Assembly: GCA_026125215.1 (NCBI GenBank)
Contig: JAHCLN010000001.1
Coordinates: 1-64,000, forward strand
DNA length: 64,000 bases
Direction: 5' to 3'
Source: Opitutaceae bacterium
GTDB lineage: Bacteria > Verrucomicrobiota > Verrucomicrobiia > Opitutales > Opitutaceae
Of this stretch, positions 1 through 59,339 are shown piece after piece. The notes below the pieces were generated by a model that was not told where the DNA came from, did not search any database, and saw only the letters and a list, made by a program, of their open reading frames with translations. Made by a program: the position numbers and the translations under genes. The first letter of the stretch is position 1, and each line of letters begins with the position of its first letter.

Positions 1-168
1 ACAATATAGCGGCGGCACGTGAGTCCCCCCGCTCGTGCCTTCAGTCTGTCGCTAATGATGCGTTACATCATGGCTTTTGGGCTGCCGCACGACCGCGCCT
101 GGATCGAGTTGGGACGTGCCGCGCGGGGACGAATATTGAGCGCTCCCAACAAGACCAGCGATGCTCAC

Positions 169-2055
169 TTAAGCGGCTGGCGTGGCTGGTGAGTTGTTCG
201 GTCCCGCTACCGGAGGCGGCGGATTGTCGGGTTTTTCGGGCATAGGTCCAAAGATAGGCGCTCTCCAGAATTCTGGTGGAATGGGACAACGGTGTTTGAC
301 GCAGGCGAGAAAAAGCACAGGCAGCGGCAGGGGCGTCTCCCGCCGCAGGGGGTATTTCTCGCGCGACTGTTTGATGAAATCGACCAAGCAGTCGGCCAAG
401 CCCACCTCTTTCTGGTTGGGATAGCGCACGAAATTCCCGGTCGTGATGCAAATGCCGCTGTCGTCCTGCTCGAATAGCTTTCCTTCAAGCAGAAGCCTTT
501 CCCAGCCCACTGGTGGCGCCCAACTGGCGAGTTCAACGTCCTCCTCGTATTCAAGTGACTCGCCCTTCGAGTTCACGCCCAGCGCCAGGTGGTTGTGGAT
601 GGAATCGAGCAATTGGTCTCGAACCGGATTGCCGAACAACAAGCACATCTCTTCGAGCATGAGGAACAGATATGAAGTCCGGCCGTAGGACTTAGTCTGC
701 GGCGTCCCTTCGACAATCGTTTCAAACACGGACTCCCAGGTATTCTCGGTGGAAAGCACCCGCAAGGGCCCGGCGTCCCGGCGCCGAAGAGCGAGACGTT
801 TCGAGAGGTTATCGAGCCAAGCGTAGATTTCGTCCTGACGGTCCGCGCCAACAAGGGCTGCCCAAACGAGAAACAGCTCGATGTGATGGGAATCCATCGT
901 CGGCCGCCATGCGGCTGCGTTCGCCCGCTGGAGGCCGATGATCCAGTCGATGATTTTGGCCATCTCCTTCACGAAAAGCGCGTGCTCGGGCTTGCCTTCG
1001 GCCGGGCAAAGCACTGCAGCGCTCTGCCAGAGTAACCCGAGTCGAGCCAGATGCCAATATGCGAGGTAGCTTTCGGCTGCCGGTTCAAAGGAGGGGTCCA
1101 TGGCCAACGACAAGCTATCCTCAACCCCCAACGACGGCCCATGCGCCGTGTAGAATCGCTCTAGTTCCCCGACATAGACCGTCATCCAAATTTCGAGCAC
1201 CGCACCTGCGACATGCTTATCTGCACTGCGGAGAGCTGCGTCCCACAAGGCAAGAACGGCCCATTCGACCAGGTCGATCCAGCCTGTCTCGAAAGCGGGC
1301 TCCTTCTTCGCGTCCTTGGCAACAATCGCCATAGCGACCGCGACCATCCAAACCGACCGCTTCGACGGTTCGGCCAAAACCAATTGCAGGAATTCCTGCC
1401 AATCGGGAATCAACACTTCCTCCCACTGGGCTGAGCCATGGGAAAAGTCCTCCACCTGTAGACAGATGTAGGTGAACTTCCGGAAGAAATTCGATGGCAG
1501 GAGCGACGGATTGAAAATCTTCCGGTGGAACACATCGACCAAATGATCGAGGTTCCAGCGCTCGAACTTCAGCGCCACGGCATCGCCAATTTTGGTGCCC
1601 AACTTGGCGATGTGGTTGTTATATTCCTCCAAACCCTCCTCCTCCTCGTCCTTGTTGTAAGCGAGAATCACGCGCACCGTGTTCACTCCAGCAAGAACCG
1701 GGTCCGTTAGATTCGGCGATGCCGCCCGGCTCAGGTCGGTTCGGAAATTCTCGTGGTCGAAGTTATGATAGGTGAGCTTTTCGTCCTTCAGGACAAAGAT
1801 GATTAGCTCCTTTTGATCGCGGGTGAGGAAGGCGTAATCCACGCCATGCTCCGCCTCCTTTTTCGGCTGCGGCAAATCCTCGCTGGTAGCCGGCGGATGG
1901 GAAGGCGCGCGGTGCAGAATCCAATCCTCTTGCCGGCCGAGCTGCTCGATCAGGTGGTCGAAACCGTAGTGGTTAACCTCCTTGATGCGCCGCGTCTCCT
2001 CTTTGAGCGATGCGACGTATTGCCGCAGGAAGGTTTTTATCGAATCGTCCGTCAT
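169..2055 (-). CDS. unknown protein, second gene of a two-gene accessory operon
   Basis: About 628 aa from the ATG at 2055 (MTDDSIKTF...). That start is preferred over an upstream extension because it overlaps the stop of the preceding gene in an ATGA arrangement, implying translational coupling. I do not recognise the family with certainty. The first ~200 residues have a nuclease-like look: an Asp-Tyr followed by a strand ELIIFVLKDE, then a helix-rich stretch with an FERWNLDHLV segment. This could be a divergent PD-(D/E)XK fold, but the canonical E-x-K is not clear. The rest is helix-rich, and the tail is Pro/Ala-rich. Base composition is clearly less GC-rich than the genes after 5 kb, and an integrase scrap and a tRNA lie upstream, so lateral acquisition is likely. 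A defence role is a guess from context only. Confidence 0.75.
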   Translation of the reverse strand: MTDDSIKTFLRQYVASLKEETRRIKEVNHYGFDHLIEQLGRQEDWILHRAPSHPPATSEDLPQPKKEAEHGVDYAFLTRDQKELIIFVLKDEKLTYHNFDHENFRTDLSRAASPNLTDPVLAGVNTVRVILAYNKDEEEEGLEEYNNHIAKLGTKIGDAVALKFERWNLDHLVDVFHRKIFNPSLLPSNFFRKFTYICLQVEDFSHGSAQWEEVLIPDWQEFLQLVLAEPSKRSVWMVAVAMAIVAKDAKKEPAFETGWIDLVEWAVLALWDAALRSADKHVAGAVLEIWMTVYVGELERFYTAHGPSLGVEDSLSLAMDPSFEPAAESYLAYWHLARLGLLWQSAAVLCPAEGKPEHALFVKEMAKIIDWIIGLQRANAAAWRPTMDSHHIELFLVWAALVGADRQDEIYAWLDNLSKRLALRRRDAGPLRVLSTENTWESVFETIVEGTPQTKSYGRTSYLFLMLEEMCLLFGNPVRDQLLDSIHNHLALGVNSKGESLEYEEDVELASWAPPVGWERLLLEGKLFEQDDSGICITTGNFVRYPNQKEVGLADCLVDFIKQSREKYPLRRETPLPLPVLFLACVKHRCPIPPEFWRAPIFGPMPEKPDNPPPPVAGPNNSPATPAA

Positions 2056-3992
2056 TCGCCTGCCCCCTCGGTTTTCTCCAATCGCTTCAGCTCCGCCTGT
2101 GCGAACAGCCGGATGGCGCGGTAGCCTTCCGGGTCGATAAACACTTTTCGTGGAAATTCTGTCGCGATGGTAGATGTCTGCAAAGGTCCGGCATTGCTTA
2201 GGACCCCGCCGTTGAACGTGGCCCACCGACTACCGTAGAGGAGATAGGATTTTTTAGCAAACTGAGCGAACACGCTGTATTTCGCGGCATCCTCTTCCAT
2301 CTTTTCCCGATCACGCACGCGCTTGCGGCGAACGGCCCGCCAAAGTCCCGGAATGCGCATGGCTTTAATAGGACTCTTATCAAGTTTGGTCAGCGCCGCG
2401 AAATAATCGTCCGCCTCCTGTATCGACTTGGCGAGCACAGGAAATACGCCACCCCTTTCCTTGAGTTGGGCTAGGCAGAGTCCGGGAAGGTTTTTGCACT
2501 GATAGAGGACCTCCTTTTGAAAGGCATGAACCATGGCTTCATGGGACGGGTCGATCCGCGCTGCCGCGTTCAGCAACTGCTGGGCAACCGTCTTGTAAAC
2601 GATATTGAGGCGGAATTCCGCCAGCCAGATCGTGAACTCCTCTGCCGTGAAGGTGGTGCCGGGCTCTTTGGGCCCCGGTAATTGCAGGTCCTCGATCAAG
2701 AAAAAGCCAAAGCGCCGTTCGCCGGGGTGTGACGATGCGACTAATTTGGCTGCGAAGGCGGCCGTTTCTTCCCGGTTTTCGCTCAAGCGAACCATTACGC
2801 CGTAAAGCGGCCCGTTGTGATCGAGCGCTTTTTGCATCGCATTCCAATGATCACGTGCGAGCAACCCCAGCACCCGGTGAAGGCGGGCCACTTGGTGGTG
2901 TGAAACAGGGTAAAGCGCCGTTTCGATCTGTTGCCAGATTCCAGCGTGGGTCGGGTCAATGGGTTGGAGTTTTAGCAGTAGATCCAGCGGATCAAATCCG
3001 ACTTCTTCCGGCGTCACATGCTCAACGGCCAACCACACCGCGCTGGCAGTGTTGTATTGATGCATGGGTTGTCGCGCGGGCTGGGTAAACTGTTCGGCAA
3101 GCCACCTTAGGAGACGGATCGTTTGCGCTTTCGGTGTGGGCTCCCGCGCACCGTTAACCGCAAGTTGGAAGCCAACGTCATACTCCTCGGGTGATCGGGC
3201 GGTGGCCGCCAAGGCATTGTCGAGTTCGGCATCTGGCAGCCGACCGAGTTCCAAAGAACGGTTCATGGTGCGCCAGTAATGGGCACGCTCCACGGGCGAC
3301 GGACTTGTGCGCATCTCTTCCAGCAACGGAGCAAGTTGGTCATTTACCTTGGCCGACAAATCGCTGCGGAAGCGCAAGGAACCCAGTAGTGCGATTTGAA
3401 AGACTCGATTGTCATGTTCGCGCGCGAATGCTGGCATCCGCGCTAGGTCGAAGGCAAATTCTGGGGTCTTCTCGCCCAGCTTGTGCAGAAGCCCGAATAG
3501 TTCTCCGACCGCACGGTCTTCGCCATAGGCGGCGTGGCGCGACACCACCCAATTTGCGATAAAATCGACTGGGAAATATCCGGCAATCAACTCCGGTGTC
3601 AGCCATTGTGGGGCATTGAAAAACCATGATGCCTTACGGTCGTTCAGCCCTCTTAACAGGGTCTGGCGTGCCGTCGGTTCGAGACCCTGCACATGGCTGG
3701 CAGTGACGGTGCGAGTCAGCGATTTTACCGCTTTTATGAAACCGCCGCATAGCTGGACCGAAACCAGCCATCCCCAGAATTCTTCGCTGGTTGCCGGCGC
3801 GTAGTTCTTCAATATCTCAGCAATCGCCGCTTTATCGGTAACAACCGACGCCAATTCGTTCTCCCAATCCACCCGTTTGAGCTTTGTGGATTCCGGTTCG
3901 GTCCTCGGCTCCGCGCGTGCATTGCGCAGAACCTCTAGCAGAATCGGGTATTTGCTCAGGGCGGACATGTCTTGGTATCTAGGATGAATCAC
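2052..3992 (-). CDS. unknown protein, first gene of a two-gene accessory operon
   Basis: About 646 aa from a GTG at 3992; an ATG at 3968 (MSALSKYPILLEVLRN...) is an equally plausible start, 638 aa. No signal peptide or membrane segment is seen, so it should be cytoplasmic. The sequence is mainly alpha-helical with many Trp and Arg residues and ends in an acidic/basic helix before the stop. I recognise no catalytic motif. It overlaps the next gene by 4 bp (ATGA), so the pair is almost certainly co-expressed and may form a complex. Composition is lower in GC than the rest of the window. The pair sits between the window edge and a decayed tyrosine recombinase next to tRNA-Val, consistent with a genomic-island cargo. 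Confidence 0.75.
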   Translation of the reverse strand: MIHPRYQDMSALSKYPILLEVLRNARAEPRTEPESTKLKRVDWENELASVVTDKAAIAEILKNYAPATSEEFWGWLVSVQLCGGFIKAVKSLTRTVTASHVQGLEPTARQTLLRGLNDRKASWFFNAPQWLTPELIAGYFPVDFIANWVVSRHAAYGEDRAVGELFGLLHKLGEKTPEFAFDLARMPAFAREHDNRVFQIALLGSLRFRSDLSAKVNDQLAPLLEEMRTSPSPVERAHYWRTMNRSLELGRLPDAELDNALAATARSPEEYDVGFQLAVNGAREPTPKAQTIRLLRWLAEQFTQPARQPMHQYNTASAVWLAVEHVTPEEVGFDPLDLLLKLQPIDPTHAGIWQQIETALYPVSHHQVARLHRVLGLLARDHWNAMQKALDHNGPLYGVMVRLSENREETAAFAAKLVASSHPGERRFGFFLIEDLQLPGPKEPGTTFTAEEFTIWLAEFRLNIVYKTVAQQLLNAAARIDPSHEAMVHAFQKEVLYQCKNLPGLCLAQLKERGGVFPVLAKSIQEADDYFAALTKLDKSPIKAMRIPGLWRAVRRKRVRDREKMEEDAAKYSVFAQFAKKSYLLYGSRWATFNGGVLSNAGPLQTSTIATEFPRKVFIDPEGYRAIRLFAQAELKRLEKTEGAGE

Positions 3993-4143
3993 CCACCGGG
4001 GAAAGGCTGATTACACCCGGAAATAGGTGCCGGCTTTTCGGCAACCGTGCCGCTGTCCGCTGGCTTCGCTGTTGGAATTCGGTTGCAGCAAGCATCTCGC
4101 GGAGGAAAAAAGAGATGAGGCCCGCGCGGATGAGCGCGCTTCC

Positions 4144-4260
4144 TTAGCCGGTGGTTTTGGCCCGTTCGGTCCAGGTGTAGCGGTAGCTGTGCAGGCTGAC
4201 GCCCCGGATGCCGATGCCCCGGCAGCGCTCGCGGAGATAGCCTGAAATGGTTTCGCAGCG
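4144..4260 (-). pseudogene. tyrosine recombinase (phage-type integrase) C-terminal scrap
   Basis: On the minus strand one frame reads through about 38 codons between two stops and contains GIRGVSLHSYRYTWTERAKT. That is the characteristic H-x-x-R stretch (LHSYRY) of the catalytic domain of tyrosine recombinases, followed by the usual W-x-E-R-A. An in-frame TAA precedes it, and a TAA follows just before the part where the G-H and catalytic Tyr motifs would be expected. It is therefore a truncated, non-functional relic, about 150 bp from tRNA-Val, a common integration target. Confidence 0.72.
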
Positions 4261-4408
4261 TTAGCGGATGGATTGGTTCCCGTTACGTCCTGTTCCGGGC
4301 CAGCCTCTCCAAAATTCGCCGGTTACGCTGTTTGGAAATTAGAGGTGTGAGGCCAAAAATTGTGGTGGATTTTCCCCGGGGGTTGTGGCTTAACCCTCCC
4401 TCCCTGTC

Positions 4409-4485
4409 GGACGCTTAGCTCAGTTGGTTAGAGCACGTGCTTCACACGCACGGGGTCACTGGTTCGAGTCCAGTAGCGTCCACCA
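4409..4485 (+). tRNA. tRNA-Val (anticodon CAC)
   Basis: Complete cloverleaf: 7-bp acceptor stem GGACGCT / AGCGTCC, D-arm GCTC...GAGC, anticodon stem CGTGC / GCACG with loop TTCACAC (anticodon CAC, reads GUG), T-arm ACTGG TTCGAGT CCAGT, and an encoded CCA end (4483-4485). The gene separates the integrase relic and unknown operon on the left from hicBA on the right. Confidence 0.97.
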
Positions 4486-4567
4486 TCTTGATGGGTCGGA
4501 CCTGCACCAAATTCCATCCCCTGCATGAGGGTTGACGCTTGGTGACAGTTGGACTTGATTCCGGCCG

Positions 4568-4786
4568 GTGGAAATTGTCTTCCGAGTCAAATCCTGCACC
4601 GAGACCGGCGGCTTTGTGGCCCGGTGGGATGATCCTCGCGGCGGCGGCATCACCACACAGGGTGACACGCTTGCCGAGCTTCAGAGCATGGTTTCTGACG
4701 CCGTAACCGGATATTTTGATGCGGGCGAGGTTCCGGCAAAGATCCGCCTTCATTTCGAGCAAGATCCGGTGTTTGCGGTTGCGTGA
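4568..4786 (+). CDS. hicB: HicB-family antitoxin
   Basis: 72 aa from a GTG at 4568. An in-frame stop at 4556 rules out a longer protein. The fold signature is a small HicB-like/DUF1902-type domain: a strand with VARWDDPRGGGITTQGDTLAEL, then a helix leading to GYFDAGEVPAKIRLHFE. It lacks the DNA-binding C-terminal extension of long HicB proteins. As the antitoxin it should bind and neutralise HicA and may repress the operon. It overlaps hicA by 4 bp (GTGA), so the order is antitoxin then toxin. It starts only 82 bp after tRNA-Val and belongs to the accessory patch. Confidence 0.85.
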   Translation: MEIVFRVKSCTETGGFVARWDDPRGGGITTQGDTLAELQSMVSDAVTGYFDAGEVPAKIRLHFEQDPVFAVA

Positions 4787-4998
4787 AGACCCCGCGGGAT
4801 GTTTCGGGGCCGGAAGCGGTGCAGGCTCTGCTCCGACTTGGCTTCGAAAGGCGTCGGCAAACCGGATCGCATGTCATCCTCCGCAAGGACAGCCGGACCG
4901 TGGTTGTTCCCATGCACAAGCCGATCAAACCGGGCACCCTGCGCGGACTGATTGAACAGGCCGGCGTGGATGTGGAAACCTTTGGGCGGGCGCTCTGA
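4783..4998 (+). CDS. hicA: HicA-family mRNA interferase toxin
   Basis: 71 aa from a GTG that overlaps the hicB stop. It is a double-stranded-RNA-binding-like HicA fold with the hallmark G-S-H motif (TGSHVILRKD), where the His is the catalytic residue, followed by VVVPMHKPIKPGTLRGLIEQAG, the usual second half. Known HicA toxins cleave mRNA independently of the ribosome. Length matches the family and no damage is visible, so the module looks intact. Confidence 0.9.
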   Translation: MKTPRDVSGPEAVQALLRLGFERRRQTGSHVILRKDSRTVVVPMHKPIKPGTLRGLIEQAGVDVETFGRAL

Positions 4999-57225: not shown

Positions 57226-58128
57226 ATGTCTTTACCGCCACCGCCTACTACCGCGCAGCTTGCCGTGGCATTTCCCGAGGTGGTTAATCCCCAGCAAATC
57301 GCGGTAGGCGGTTTCAAGTATGTTTATCGTGCTACGGTCAACGGCGCCATAGAGGCCTTCAAATTATTAGCCTTGCCTGCTGTCGGGGTAACCGAAGCCG
57401 AGAAAGCTGCACGGCAGGAATACATTGGACGCGCCCAGCGAGAGGTCGAGTTGTTGGGAAAATGTGCCGCGCCAGAGCTGGTGAAATTGGGCTCTCTTGC
57501 TCCGCGGGAAGTGAACATCGGTGGTTTGGACTTTCTAGGCTACAGTGAGGAATTTCTGGCGGGAGAGGGCCTCCACCAATATATTCAACGTAAAGGACCG
57601 CCTCCGACGGAAAGGGAGGCCAAGATGTTATTTCTGTCTTTGTTGCGAGCGATCAAGCAGCTCTGGCAGTTCGAGACAGTCCACCGCGACATTAAGCCGC
57701 TCAACGTGGTCATGCTGGGCTCCGCGGGTCGTCCGTTTGTTTTGCTCGATCTGGGCATCGCTTATCAAACGCGCGAGCCGGGCCTTACCGTCGATCCGGC
57801 AATTCGTCCTGCGACATTGCCCTATATGGCGCCAGAGATGCTCCAAGCTAACTTCCGGCAAGCGCTCGATTACCGGGCGGACATCTACACAGCGGGCATC
57901 ACCACATTCGAATACGCCACCTTTGTTCATCCGCTCCAATATCAACCGGAGCACCCCGCTAAGACCCTCAGTCGCGTTTTGCGGCAATCCCCAACGCCAC
58001 TGCGGTCGTTGCGGGCAGACTATTCTGAGGCGTTCTGTCGCCTTATCGACCAAACGCTGAAGAAATCACCGCCGTTGCGGCCGGGAAATCTCGACGCCAT
58101 CATCAAACGGTTGGAGGCTGAAGTATGA
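57226..58128 (+). CDS. serine/threonine protein kinase
   Basis: 300 aa, a bare kinase domain with no membrane segment. Gly-rich loop IAVGGFKYVYRATV, the beta-3 Lys in EAFKLL, an alpha-C Glu in QREVELL, catalytic loop VHRDIKPLNVVM, metal motif DLG (replacing DFG) in LLDLGIAYQT, and APE in MAPEML. All key catalytic residues are present. It overlaps the next gene by ATGA. Lower GC and different codon use from the neighbours mark it as acquired. Context (unknown partner, nearby nuclease) suggests a defence or stress module, which is inference. Confidence 0.88.
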   Translation: MSLPPPPTTAQLAVAFPEVVNPQQIAVGGFKYVYRATVNGAIEAFKLLALPAVGVTEAEKAARQEYIGRAQREVELLGKCAAPELVKLGSLAPREVNIGGLDFLGYSEEFLAGEGLHQYIQRKGPPPTEREAKMLFLSLLRAIKQLWQFETVHRDIKPLNVVMLGSAGRPFVLLDLGIAYQTREPGLTVDPAIRPATLPYMAPEMLQANFRQALDYRADIYTAGITTFEYATFVHPLQYQPEHPAKTLSRVLRQSPTPLRSLRADYSEAFCRLIDQTLKKSPPLRPGNLDAIIKRLEAEV

Positions 58129-59339
58129 AGCTCTTCGTACAACATGGGTATGGCGAAGGTCAGAAAGTTCAGGCTGGTATCGATGCCGGTTACATCGACG
58201 GTGTGATCTATAGTCCCAAGGATATTGGATTGGGGCGCCTTCAAGGTTCGCTGGATGACTTAGCGAAAAGAAAACCAGCGGCGGAGCGGCTGTTTGATCC
58301 GCAGTATTACGCCACATTGGTAGCCAATGCTCCTAATTCGCGTTGCGGACTACTGATGTCGGAATACGCCGAATATTTTTCGGCTCGGCGGCGTGGCCAA
58401 TTGGAACAGGAAGGGCGAGTGCGTGATGATTTGAGAGACACCTTGCGATTCACAAAGAAGCTGAATCTTTCTTCAGTAATCACCCCCGGAATCTTTGTGC
58501 CGCGGTCGCTCAATTCTATTGAGGCGGTGATCGCGAAGAATTTTATTCGGTTTTCCAAGACCACCGCAAAGGAGGTGGGCGAGAGCCGCCCTGTTCTAGC
58601 AACCCTTGCGATCAGTTGTGAGGCCTTACGACGACACCAAGAGTTGATCGAATTTCTGACTGACCTGACTCTCCTCGAGAATCCGCCAGATGGTTTTTAC
58701 TTGCTGGTTGGAACGTCGGGAACGGATGGGCGCCAGGAAATTTATCACGCAGATACGATTGCGGGCTGGCTCTTCCTCACTCACACCTTGGCCCTGAATG
58801 GATTGAGAGCCGTCAACGGCTATTCAGATCGGCTGACGCCGTTTCTAGGCGCATGTGGGGCCGCGGCGGGAGCAAGCGGTTGGTGGTCCAATCTGCGTAA
58901 TTTTGGCTTGGGGCGTTTCGCCCCAGAGGCATCCGGTGGACGACTACCCACACCGCGTTATCTTAGCTGCGCTTTGCTCAATCGCATTACTTTTGACGAG
59001 TTGGAGCGGCTGCGTGGAGTCGTTCCGGATGTGCTCAACGGTCTTCCAACCGATAAGCTTTACCCGGTTGAGGATGGTTCGGAACCCGAACGCAACCAAG
59101 AGGTGTTGCAAAGCTGGGATGCAATCCGAGAACTAAACCGACGCTTGGTTGCGGAGGGGGACACGGAGGCGAGTCTCGCGAATTGTCGGAAGGGCATTGC
59201 TGACGCTGCCGGGCTCTACCTCGAAGTTCAGGGGGCACTGTTTTCTCCGCTGGACTCCAAATCGGATGACAGCCACCTCGCGCCGTTGAGCGACGGCTTA
59301 GAGCTTTTTGCGGAGCTGGCTGAACTTGATTCGCCGTAG
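58125..59339 (+). CDS. unknown protein coupled to the kinase
   Basis: 404 aa starting inside the kinase stop (MKLFVQHGYGEGQKVQAG). The alternation of strands and helices with stretches such as DAGYIDGVIYSPKDIG, SSVITPGIFVPRS, RPVLATLAISCEALRRH and DGFYLLVGTSGTDGRQ suggests an alpha/beta barrel, and a distant resemblance to tRNA-guanine transglycosylase-type barrels is possible, but I see no catalytic motif that proves it. Cytoplasmic. It overlaps the convergent nuclease-like gene by 42 bp. It is an obvious candidate substrate, effector or regulator partner of the kinase. Confidence 0.78.
   Translation: MKLFVQHGYGEGQKVQAGIDAGYIDGVIYSPKDIGLGRLQGSLDDLAKRKPAAERLFDPQYYATLVANAPNSRCGLLMSEYAEYFSARRRGQLEQEGRVRDDLRDTLRFTKKLNLSSVITPGIFVPRSLNSIEAVIAKNFIRFSKTTAKEVGESRPVLATLAISCEALRRHQELIEFLTDLTLLENPPDGFYLLVGTSGTDGRQEIYHADTIAGWLFLTHTLALNGLRAVNGYSDRLTPFLGACGAAAGASGWWSNLRNFGLGRFAPEASGGRLPTPRYLSCALLNRITFDELERLRGVVPDVLNGLPTDKLYPVEDGSEPERNQEVLQSWDAIRELNRRLVAEGDTEASLANCRKGIADAAGLYLEVQGALFSPLDSKSDDSHLAPLSDGLELFAELAELDSP

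Follow-up and report, generated by a model that had tools for sequence, protein, structure and literature searches.

A probable divergent Olokun gene pair at a tRNA-Val locus in an Opitutaceae genome

The gene pair and its gene models

Two overlapping genes on the minus strand lie at the start of contig C1 in the 3.46 Mb draft genome of an Opitutaceae bacterium, and we analysed them here as a candidate anti-phage defence operon. Throughout, the window denotes the 64,000-nucleotide stretch of DNA whose first base is the end of this contig. A preliminary description, made from the letters of the window, had reported an unknown two-gene operon of low guanine-plus-cytosine (GC) content, possibly a defence system. 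The defence assignment gained support from profile matches to the Olokun system, from patchy occurrence and from defence genes near relatives; the operon does not count as unknown, Olokun being already known. The features discussed below are as follows.

2052–3968, minus strand: oloA-like gene, probably 638 amino acids from ATG 3968, with an OloA profile match and an all-helical model
169–2055, minus strand: oloB-like gene, 628 amino acids, overlapping oloA by ATGA, with an OloB profile match
1516–2055, minus strand: OloB residues 1–180, predicted PD-(D/E)XK-type nuclease domain, from helix and strand order and VIA matches
1786–1839, minus strand: OloB D73–K90, candidate active-site pair, with the ELIIFVLKDE stretch inside the interval; D73 and K90, like G71, are identical in 16 of 16 proteins
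250–1512, minus strand: OloB residues 182–602, mostly helical C-terminal region predicted by the structure model
4145–4239, minus strand: tyrosine recombinase relic around an HxxR box, from amino acid and DNA matches to an open reading frame (ORF) of genome G027
4409–4485, plus strand: tRNA-Val(CAC), core-side boundary of the variable stretch, from collinearity with congener G003
1–4355, no strand: stretch unmatched in congener G003, containing the operon and the relic and ending at the contig end, base 1

The two proteins had been given as 646 and 628 amino acids long. The second length was confirmed, and the longest oloA-like ORF does occupy 2052–3992 on the minus strand, with 646 codons from GTG 3992. 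The gene itself probably starts at ATG 3968 and encodes 638 amino acids, because codon 9 is an invariant methionine in a nine-row alignment (A6) and the nearest relative, in genome G669, has the same start. As described, both ORFs are on the minus strand and overlap by ATGA, at 2052–2055; the G-rich stretch GAGGGGG lies inside oloA, immediately 5' of the oloB ATG. Their low GC content was also borne out, at 0.569 for 169–3992 versus 0.664 for 5025–64000. Relative to the G669 homologues, second-position differences are 0.286 and 0.197 for the two genes, and third-position differences are 0.644 and 0.531. This codon-position constraint, together with homologues in several phyla, rules out chance ORFs; as read from the sequence, neither window gene is disrupted and both are constrained at the protein level. 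Scans for promoters and terminators gave a yield no higher than shuffles, within error. Window base 1 is the contig end, and therefore the far flank of the operon is not visible.

Relationship to Olokun, distribution and neighbouring genes

Olokun was reportedly described by Millman et al. in 2022, and both window proteins match its PADLOC profiles: the first matches OloA (E 2.4e-16, 58.1 bits, profile positions 224–592 of 596) and the second OloB (E 1e-23, 82.3 bits, profile positions 37–552 of 556). Profile–profile comparison of the window branch with typical copies using hhalign gave probabilities of 98.7 over 521 columns for OloB, 96.8 over 538 columns for OloA and 96.7 over 156 columns for the nuclease domain alone. 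These alignments show homology over most of the length of both proteins, encoded, as in Olokun (PADLOC PDLC03925 and PDLC03926), by two overlapping genes in the same order, with about 18–22% identity to typical copies. The pair is thus, very probably, related to Olokun, and the PADLOC matches rule out a wholly unknown system. The preliminary statement that neither protein has a recognised domain holds for Pfam and NCBIfam, where no domain was found in either, and fails for PADLOC. A Pfam match of HTH_21 on P0001, of the window pair, was far under the cut-off, and P0002 had a weak PADLOC match to PDC-S13 (E 0.033, residues 37–165).

The window branch differs from typical Olokun copies in forming a separate deep branch. 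In trees of 16 OloB and 14 OloA proteins, of unknown root and with G669 not included, the two sides were split at 100/100 (OloB) and 100/99 (OloA). The typical side consists of six OloB proteins, the experimentally tested Olokun proteins not being among them, and several branches of the OloA tree are long. Window-branch OloB proteins further differ in carrying two inserts, of ~9 and of ~12 residues, ahead of the GVD motif, in reading L-K-D-E against [ST]-[VI]-K in typical copies, and in reading N-K-D-E against G-G. By sequence comparison, the window pair belongs to a deep branch common to planctomycetes, verrucomicrobia and a few other phyla.

Occurrence of the pair is patchy. An OloB profile applied to 387 sampled genomes of the phylum returned four matches with both branches counted: those in G240 (439 bits) and G370 (391 bits) were strong, those in the window and G102 weak. 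OloB was present in one of 57 near genomes and in none of four congeners, and the pair occurred in 3 of 372 genomes of the order, which rules out a core or metabolic operon. Homologues therefore do not sit in conserved core loci, in line with the preliminary proposal: they are scattered and frequently have known defence genes as neighbours. The search for relatives with a single sequence was unsuccessful, and an alignment of the two weak sequences (A3) recovered nine relatives in genome contigs, 30–39% identical, from four planctomycetes, Verrucomicrobia, Puniceicoccaceae (the G102 contig, one of the two aligned sources), a deltaproteobacterium, a dehalococcoid and a bin labelled Nealsonbacteria. 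The closest relative, G669, belongs to the same family and another genus (65% identity in OloB, 53% in OloA). In eight of the nine relative loci oloA is directly upstream of oloB with an overlap of 4–14 nucleotides, and in G669 the genes are likewise adjacent and in the same order; at the ninth locus (L019) only 269 bases precede oloB, and they contain no trace of OloA. With this branch, the range of Olokun comes to include planctomycetes, verrucomicrobia, Chloroflexota and others.

The window pair was most likely acquired by horizontal transfer. Typical OloB is present on 34 plasmid records. Neither P0001 nor P0002 had a match in plasmids or phages, P0004 had none in plasmids, and viral contigs scanned by degenerate patterns contained no window-branch and no typical OloB; carriage of the window branch by phages or plasmids was rejected on these searches. 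In G669 (L055:3542-10274) a tRNA-Leu(CAA) precedes the pair by ~2.8 kb. Two genes separate them, and the first of these, by our reading of its sequence, begins like a protein kinase.

Defence genes were recognised by PADLOC near the pair in five of the nine relative loci, and by Pfam in one more (L019), so that the neighbourhood analysis agrees with the defence assignment for six of nine. This is a recurrence rather than a measured enrichment, with no random-locus control. The neighbours are as follows.

L017: DpdE/DrmD-like helicase and DrmMI (PADLOC)
L018: ZacA, ZacB and ZacC (PADLOC)
L020: DrmMI, ZacB and ZacC (PADLOC), and ZacA (tblastn, 45% identical)
L021: GajA and GajB (PADLOC)
L025: type I restriction–modification, SoFic and IetAS (PADLOC)
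L019: AbiEii (Pfam)

The gene order OloA-OloB-ZacA-ZacB-ZacC occurs in two planctomycetes (L018, 2413–12697; L020, 1164–18245), with no or few bases between most genes and with Zac proteins about 40–45% identical between the two loci. In L017 and L020, upstream genes encode DrmMI (68% identical) and a helicase. Around six typical copies examined, type III restriction–modification genes adjoin the pair in L013, L014 and L049, Thoeris and LmuB are nearby in L052, a NACHT nucleoside triphosphatase and an integrase are nearby in L051, and only conjugation genes are nearby in L050. Relatives are thus often found among known defence genes, namely those of Gabija, Azaca, DISARM-like, type I and III restriction and IetAS systems, and Olokun is shown joined to Azaca and DISARM-like genes. 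The L017 contig is titled Candidatus Nealsonbacteria, and the DrmMI protein to which its own is 68% identical is a planctomycete's; the label is doubtful and the bin may be contaminated.

Predicted folds, active site and competing explanations

Structure prediction gave OloB a nuclease-type fold, which matches the nuclease-like N-terminal segment noticed earlier in the second protein, and gave OloA the shape of a helical solenoid. In the AlphaFold model of OloB (10 alignment rows; predicted local distance difference test (pLDDT) 81.0; predicted template modelling score (pTM) 0.82), the helices and strands of residues 1–180 follow one another as in the PD-(D/E)XK core. Structural matching with VIA aligned the protein with the FokI cleavage domain (395–559; Z 9.2, root-mean-square deviation (rmsd) 3.5, 141 residues), MspJI (Z 8.6 and 8.4) and EcoT38I (Z 7.6). 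Over residues 15–191 it returned AF1548, VC1899, Cdn1, LmuA (Z 6.3) and EndoMS at Z 6.2 to 7.8, all of which we take to be PD-(D/E)XK proteins. A designed protein scored Z 8.3 over a different range, and many of the listed matches are helical proteins brought in by the C-terminal region. The model supports an architecture in which an N-terminal nuclease domain of PD-(D/E)XK fold is joined to a helical C-terminal region in OloB. The OloA model (9 alignment rows, pLDDT 77.8, pTM 0.64) consists entirely of helices, and OloA is accordingly a predicted helical-repeat solenoid. It resembles HEAT solenoids such as the PP2A A subunit (403 residues aligned at Z 13.2 and rmsd 15.8), but a match of this size can arise by chance for helical models and is weak proof of a helical repeat.

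Conservation in the 16 OloB proteins is confined to 11 invariant columns (M1, E19, D33, G71, D73, K90, W271, G340, S461, W512 and P514), and besides M1 the nuclease domain holds five of them, E19, D33, G71, D73 and K90. In the model, D73 lies just before the strand 74–77 and K90 ends the strand 83–90, the positions of the catalytic aspartate and lysine of the fold. Residue 88 is V (nine proteins) or A (one) in the window branch and S (four) or T (two) in typical copies. In a gapped stretch of the alignment, the counterpart of D107 in typical copies is D, E or Q.

We propose, with a probability of about 0.72, that the pair is a divergent Olokun anti-phage system in which OloB is a nuclease effector and OloA a solenoid serving as sensor or scaffold. 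OloA and OloB would form a complex whose solenoids either bind invading DNA or respond to a product of the phage; either event would unleash the OloB nuclease, and OloB would then cut phage nucleic acid or, as abortive infection, the nucleic acid of the cell. That OloB acts as a nuclease we consider somewhat more likely than not. The active site would probably be unorthodox: D73 and K90 would form it, possibly joined by E19 and D33. Since (D/E)-X-K lacks its acid here, another residue would have to supply the second carboxylate, and D91, E92, D107, D136 and E137 are candidates in the window branch.

Known systems offer partial parallels. OloB residues 1–180 resemble PD-(D/E)XK restriction endonucleases (FokI cleavage domain, MspJI, EcoT38I) in predicted fold and in a conserved D and K, but differ in the lack of the half-motif acid, the fusion to a helical region and the constant neighbour OloA. 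LmuA, the effector of Lamassu defence, is of PD-(D/E)XK type and works with a partner, the SMC-like LmuB. OloB is like LmuA in that the latter is on its list of fold matches, whereas the partner of OloB is a predicted solenoid rather than an SMC-like protein. The [ST]-x-K of typical Olokun copies presumably resembles the layout of PD-XXK-E nucleases. With these nucleases (Cfr10I, NgoMIV), OloB shares a lysine in the usual place and an absent half-motif acid; it differs in that its relocated acid is a candidate only and in that no sequence similarity was found in the PDB.

Several results weigh against the proposal. In a Foldseek comparison of OloB with the PDB, no match reached E ≤ 0.001, the best E was 0.12 and nucleases did not head the list; the nuclease fold therefore rests on VIA re-alignment, in which values of Z below 8 can be commonplace. 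Domain profiles compared with the PDB found no nuclease (best E 0.12 for A8); the best PDB match of the A9 profile, to a ketol-acid reductoisomerase at E 4e-4, consisted of two pieces of 10.7 bits each and was judged spurious. The acidic (or Gln) residue two before the lysine is missing in all 16 OloB proteins, so that OloB might be a relic of the fold that only binds. At three relative loci (L022, L023 and L024), none of the 11 neighbours tested matched PADLOC. Sequence searches of the PDB with the window proteins likewise returned nothing credible. We file OloB as PD-(D/E)XK on its modelled fold only and leave catalytic membership aside, since members with a relocated acid exist.

Among the alternatives, an Olokun-related pair whose PD-(D/E)XK domain is catalytically dead and binds DNA or a partner, with action through OloA or by sequestration, is in our estimate unlikely. 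It draws on the replacement of the acid two before K90, by V or A in 10 of 10 window-branch proteins and by S or T in 6 of 6 typical ones, but it leaves the identity of D73, K90, E19 and D33 in all 16 proteins, when only 11 of about 628 columns are so conserved, to be accounted for. Restriction enzymes with a relocated carboxylate also speak against it: PMC551604 describes this for Cfr10I and NgoMIV as 'PD-XXK-E'. The far-diverged second branch is valuable because it singles out the parts that tolerate no change: four charged residues of the predicted nuclease domain, which make the Olokun mechanism testable with a few point mutants. That mechanism is listed as unknown in PMC12926258, Olokun is called not thoroughly characterised in PMC12592470, and PMC12629846 places it concentrated in one Pseudomonas island hotspot. 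Among the matches listed in open-licence PubMed Central, the accessible text of PMC10121019, PMC12926258, PMC12592470, PMC12629846, PMC551604 and PMC548270 gives no Olokun mechanism, domain or second branch.

It is improbable that OloAB is instead a restriction arm or helper of a larger composite (the methylase DrmMI, a helicase and the Azaca proteins ZacABC), of which the lone pair in the window would be a remnant. The nearly gapless OloA-OloB-ZacA-ZacB-ZacC order in L018 and L020, the DrmMI and helicase genes upstream in L017 and L020, and the several other relatives that adjoin or sit within restriction–modification operons all favour such a composite, yet the pairs in L022, L023 and L024 have no PADLOC-recognised partners among the tested neighbours, the L050 pair stands among conjugation genes only, and both window genes are intact with protein-level constraint, one flank being hidden by the contig end. 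A related idea, which we regard as a long shot, makes OloAB of the window branch a portable nuclease module for methylase–helicase machines: in planctomycetes it would form a composite with DrmMI, helicase and ZacABC, with OloB and its relocated carboxylate as the cutting arm, and window-like copies would act alone. A two-gene system of Olokun ancestry that serves another purpose, such as repairing DNA or maintaining an element, and has no part in phage defence is very improbable: identity to typical copies is about 18–22% and three of nine loci are without recognised defence neighbours, but defence genes recur near the other six (five by PADLOC, one by Pfam) and the distribution is patchy.

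The tRNA-Val locus and other variable DNA

The adjacent tRNA-Val of the preliminary description was confirmed as tRNA-Val(CAC), and the operon lies on its 5' side, on the opposite strand. Congener G003 is collinear with window positions 4356–4490 and again from 5063 onward. The match ends at 4356, 53 bp before the tRNA, and what G003 lacks is 4.36 kb toward the contig end and ~0.5 kb past the tRNA, the latter with a HicA gene. The tRNA locus was recovered in three of four congeners (G002, G003 and G004); in G001, we saw no orthologue of the mandelate-racemase-like gene next to it.

The truncated tyrosine recombinase of the preliminary description is real, but it amounts to only 31 codons (4147–4239, minus strand), between the operon and the tRNA, and has no Pfam match of its own. 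It matches an intact 351-amino-acid ORF of G027 with 67% amino acid identity over 33 residues and 82% DNA identity over 91 bp. That ORF lies ~0.2 kb from a tRNA-Cys and has a weak match to Pfam Phage_integrase (E 4e-5, 23.9 bits, cut-off 27.1). A direct repeat of the tRNA end was not found (the longest exact match in 1–4400 is 8 bases, against a shuffle mean of 9.06), the far end lying possibly beyond the contig. Insertion into the tRNA with direct repeats is not supported, the repeat being missing in this stretch and the operon lying on the 5' side.

Between the tRNA and the mandelate-racemase-like gene lies a HicA toxin gene (4783–4998, plus strand; Pfam E 8.2e-18). Beside it, in the HicB position, is a 72-amino-acid ORF with no Pfam match; the two occupy 4568–4998 on the plus strand, a stretch absent from G003. 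In congener G004 (L046:10251-10531), the genes for tRNA-Val and the neighbouring racemase-like protein lie on opposite strands. This differs from their arrangement in the window and in G003 and constitutes a local rearrangement. A second spot of low GC content (~0.54) at 57226–59339, plus strand, encodes a protein kinase (Pfam Pkinase E 1.3e-23; PADLOC PD-T4-6 E 3e-27) and, from the next gene, which overlaps the kinase gene by ATG, a 404-amino-acid protein with no Pfam or PADLOC match; these two genes are possibly another defence pair.

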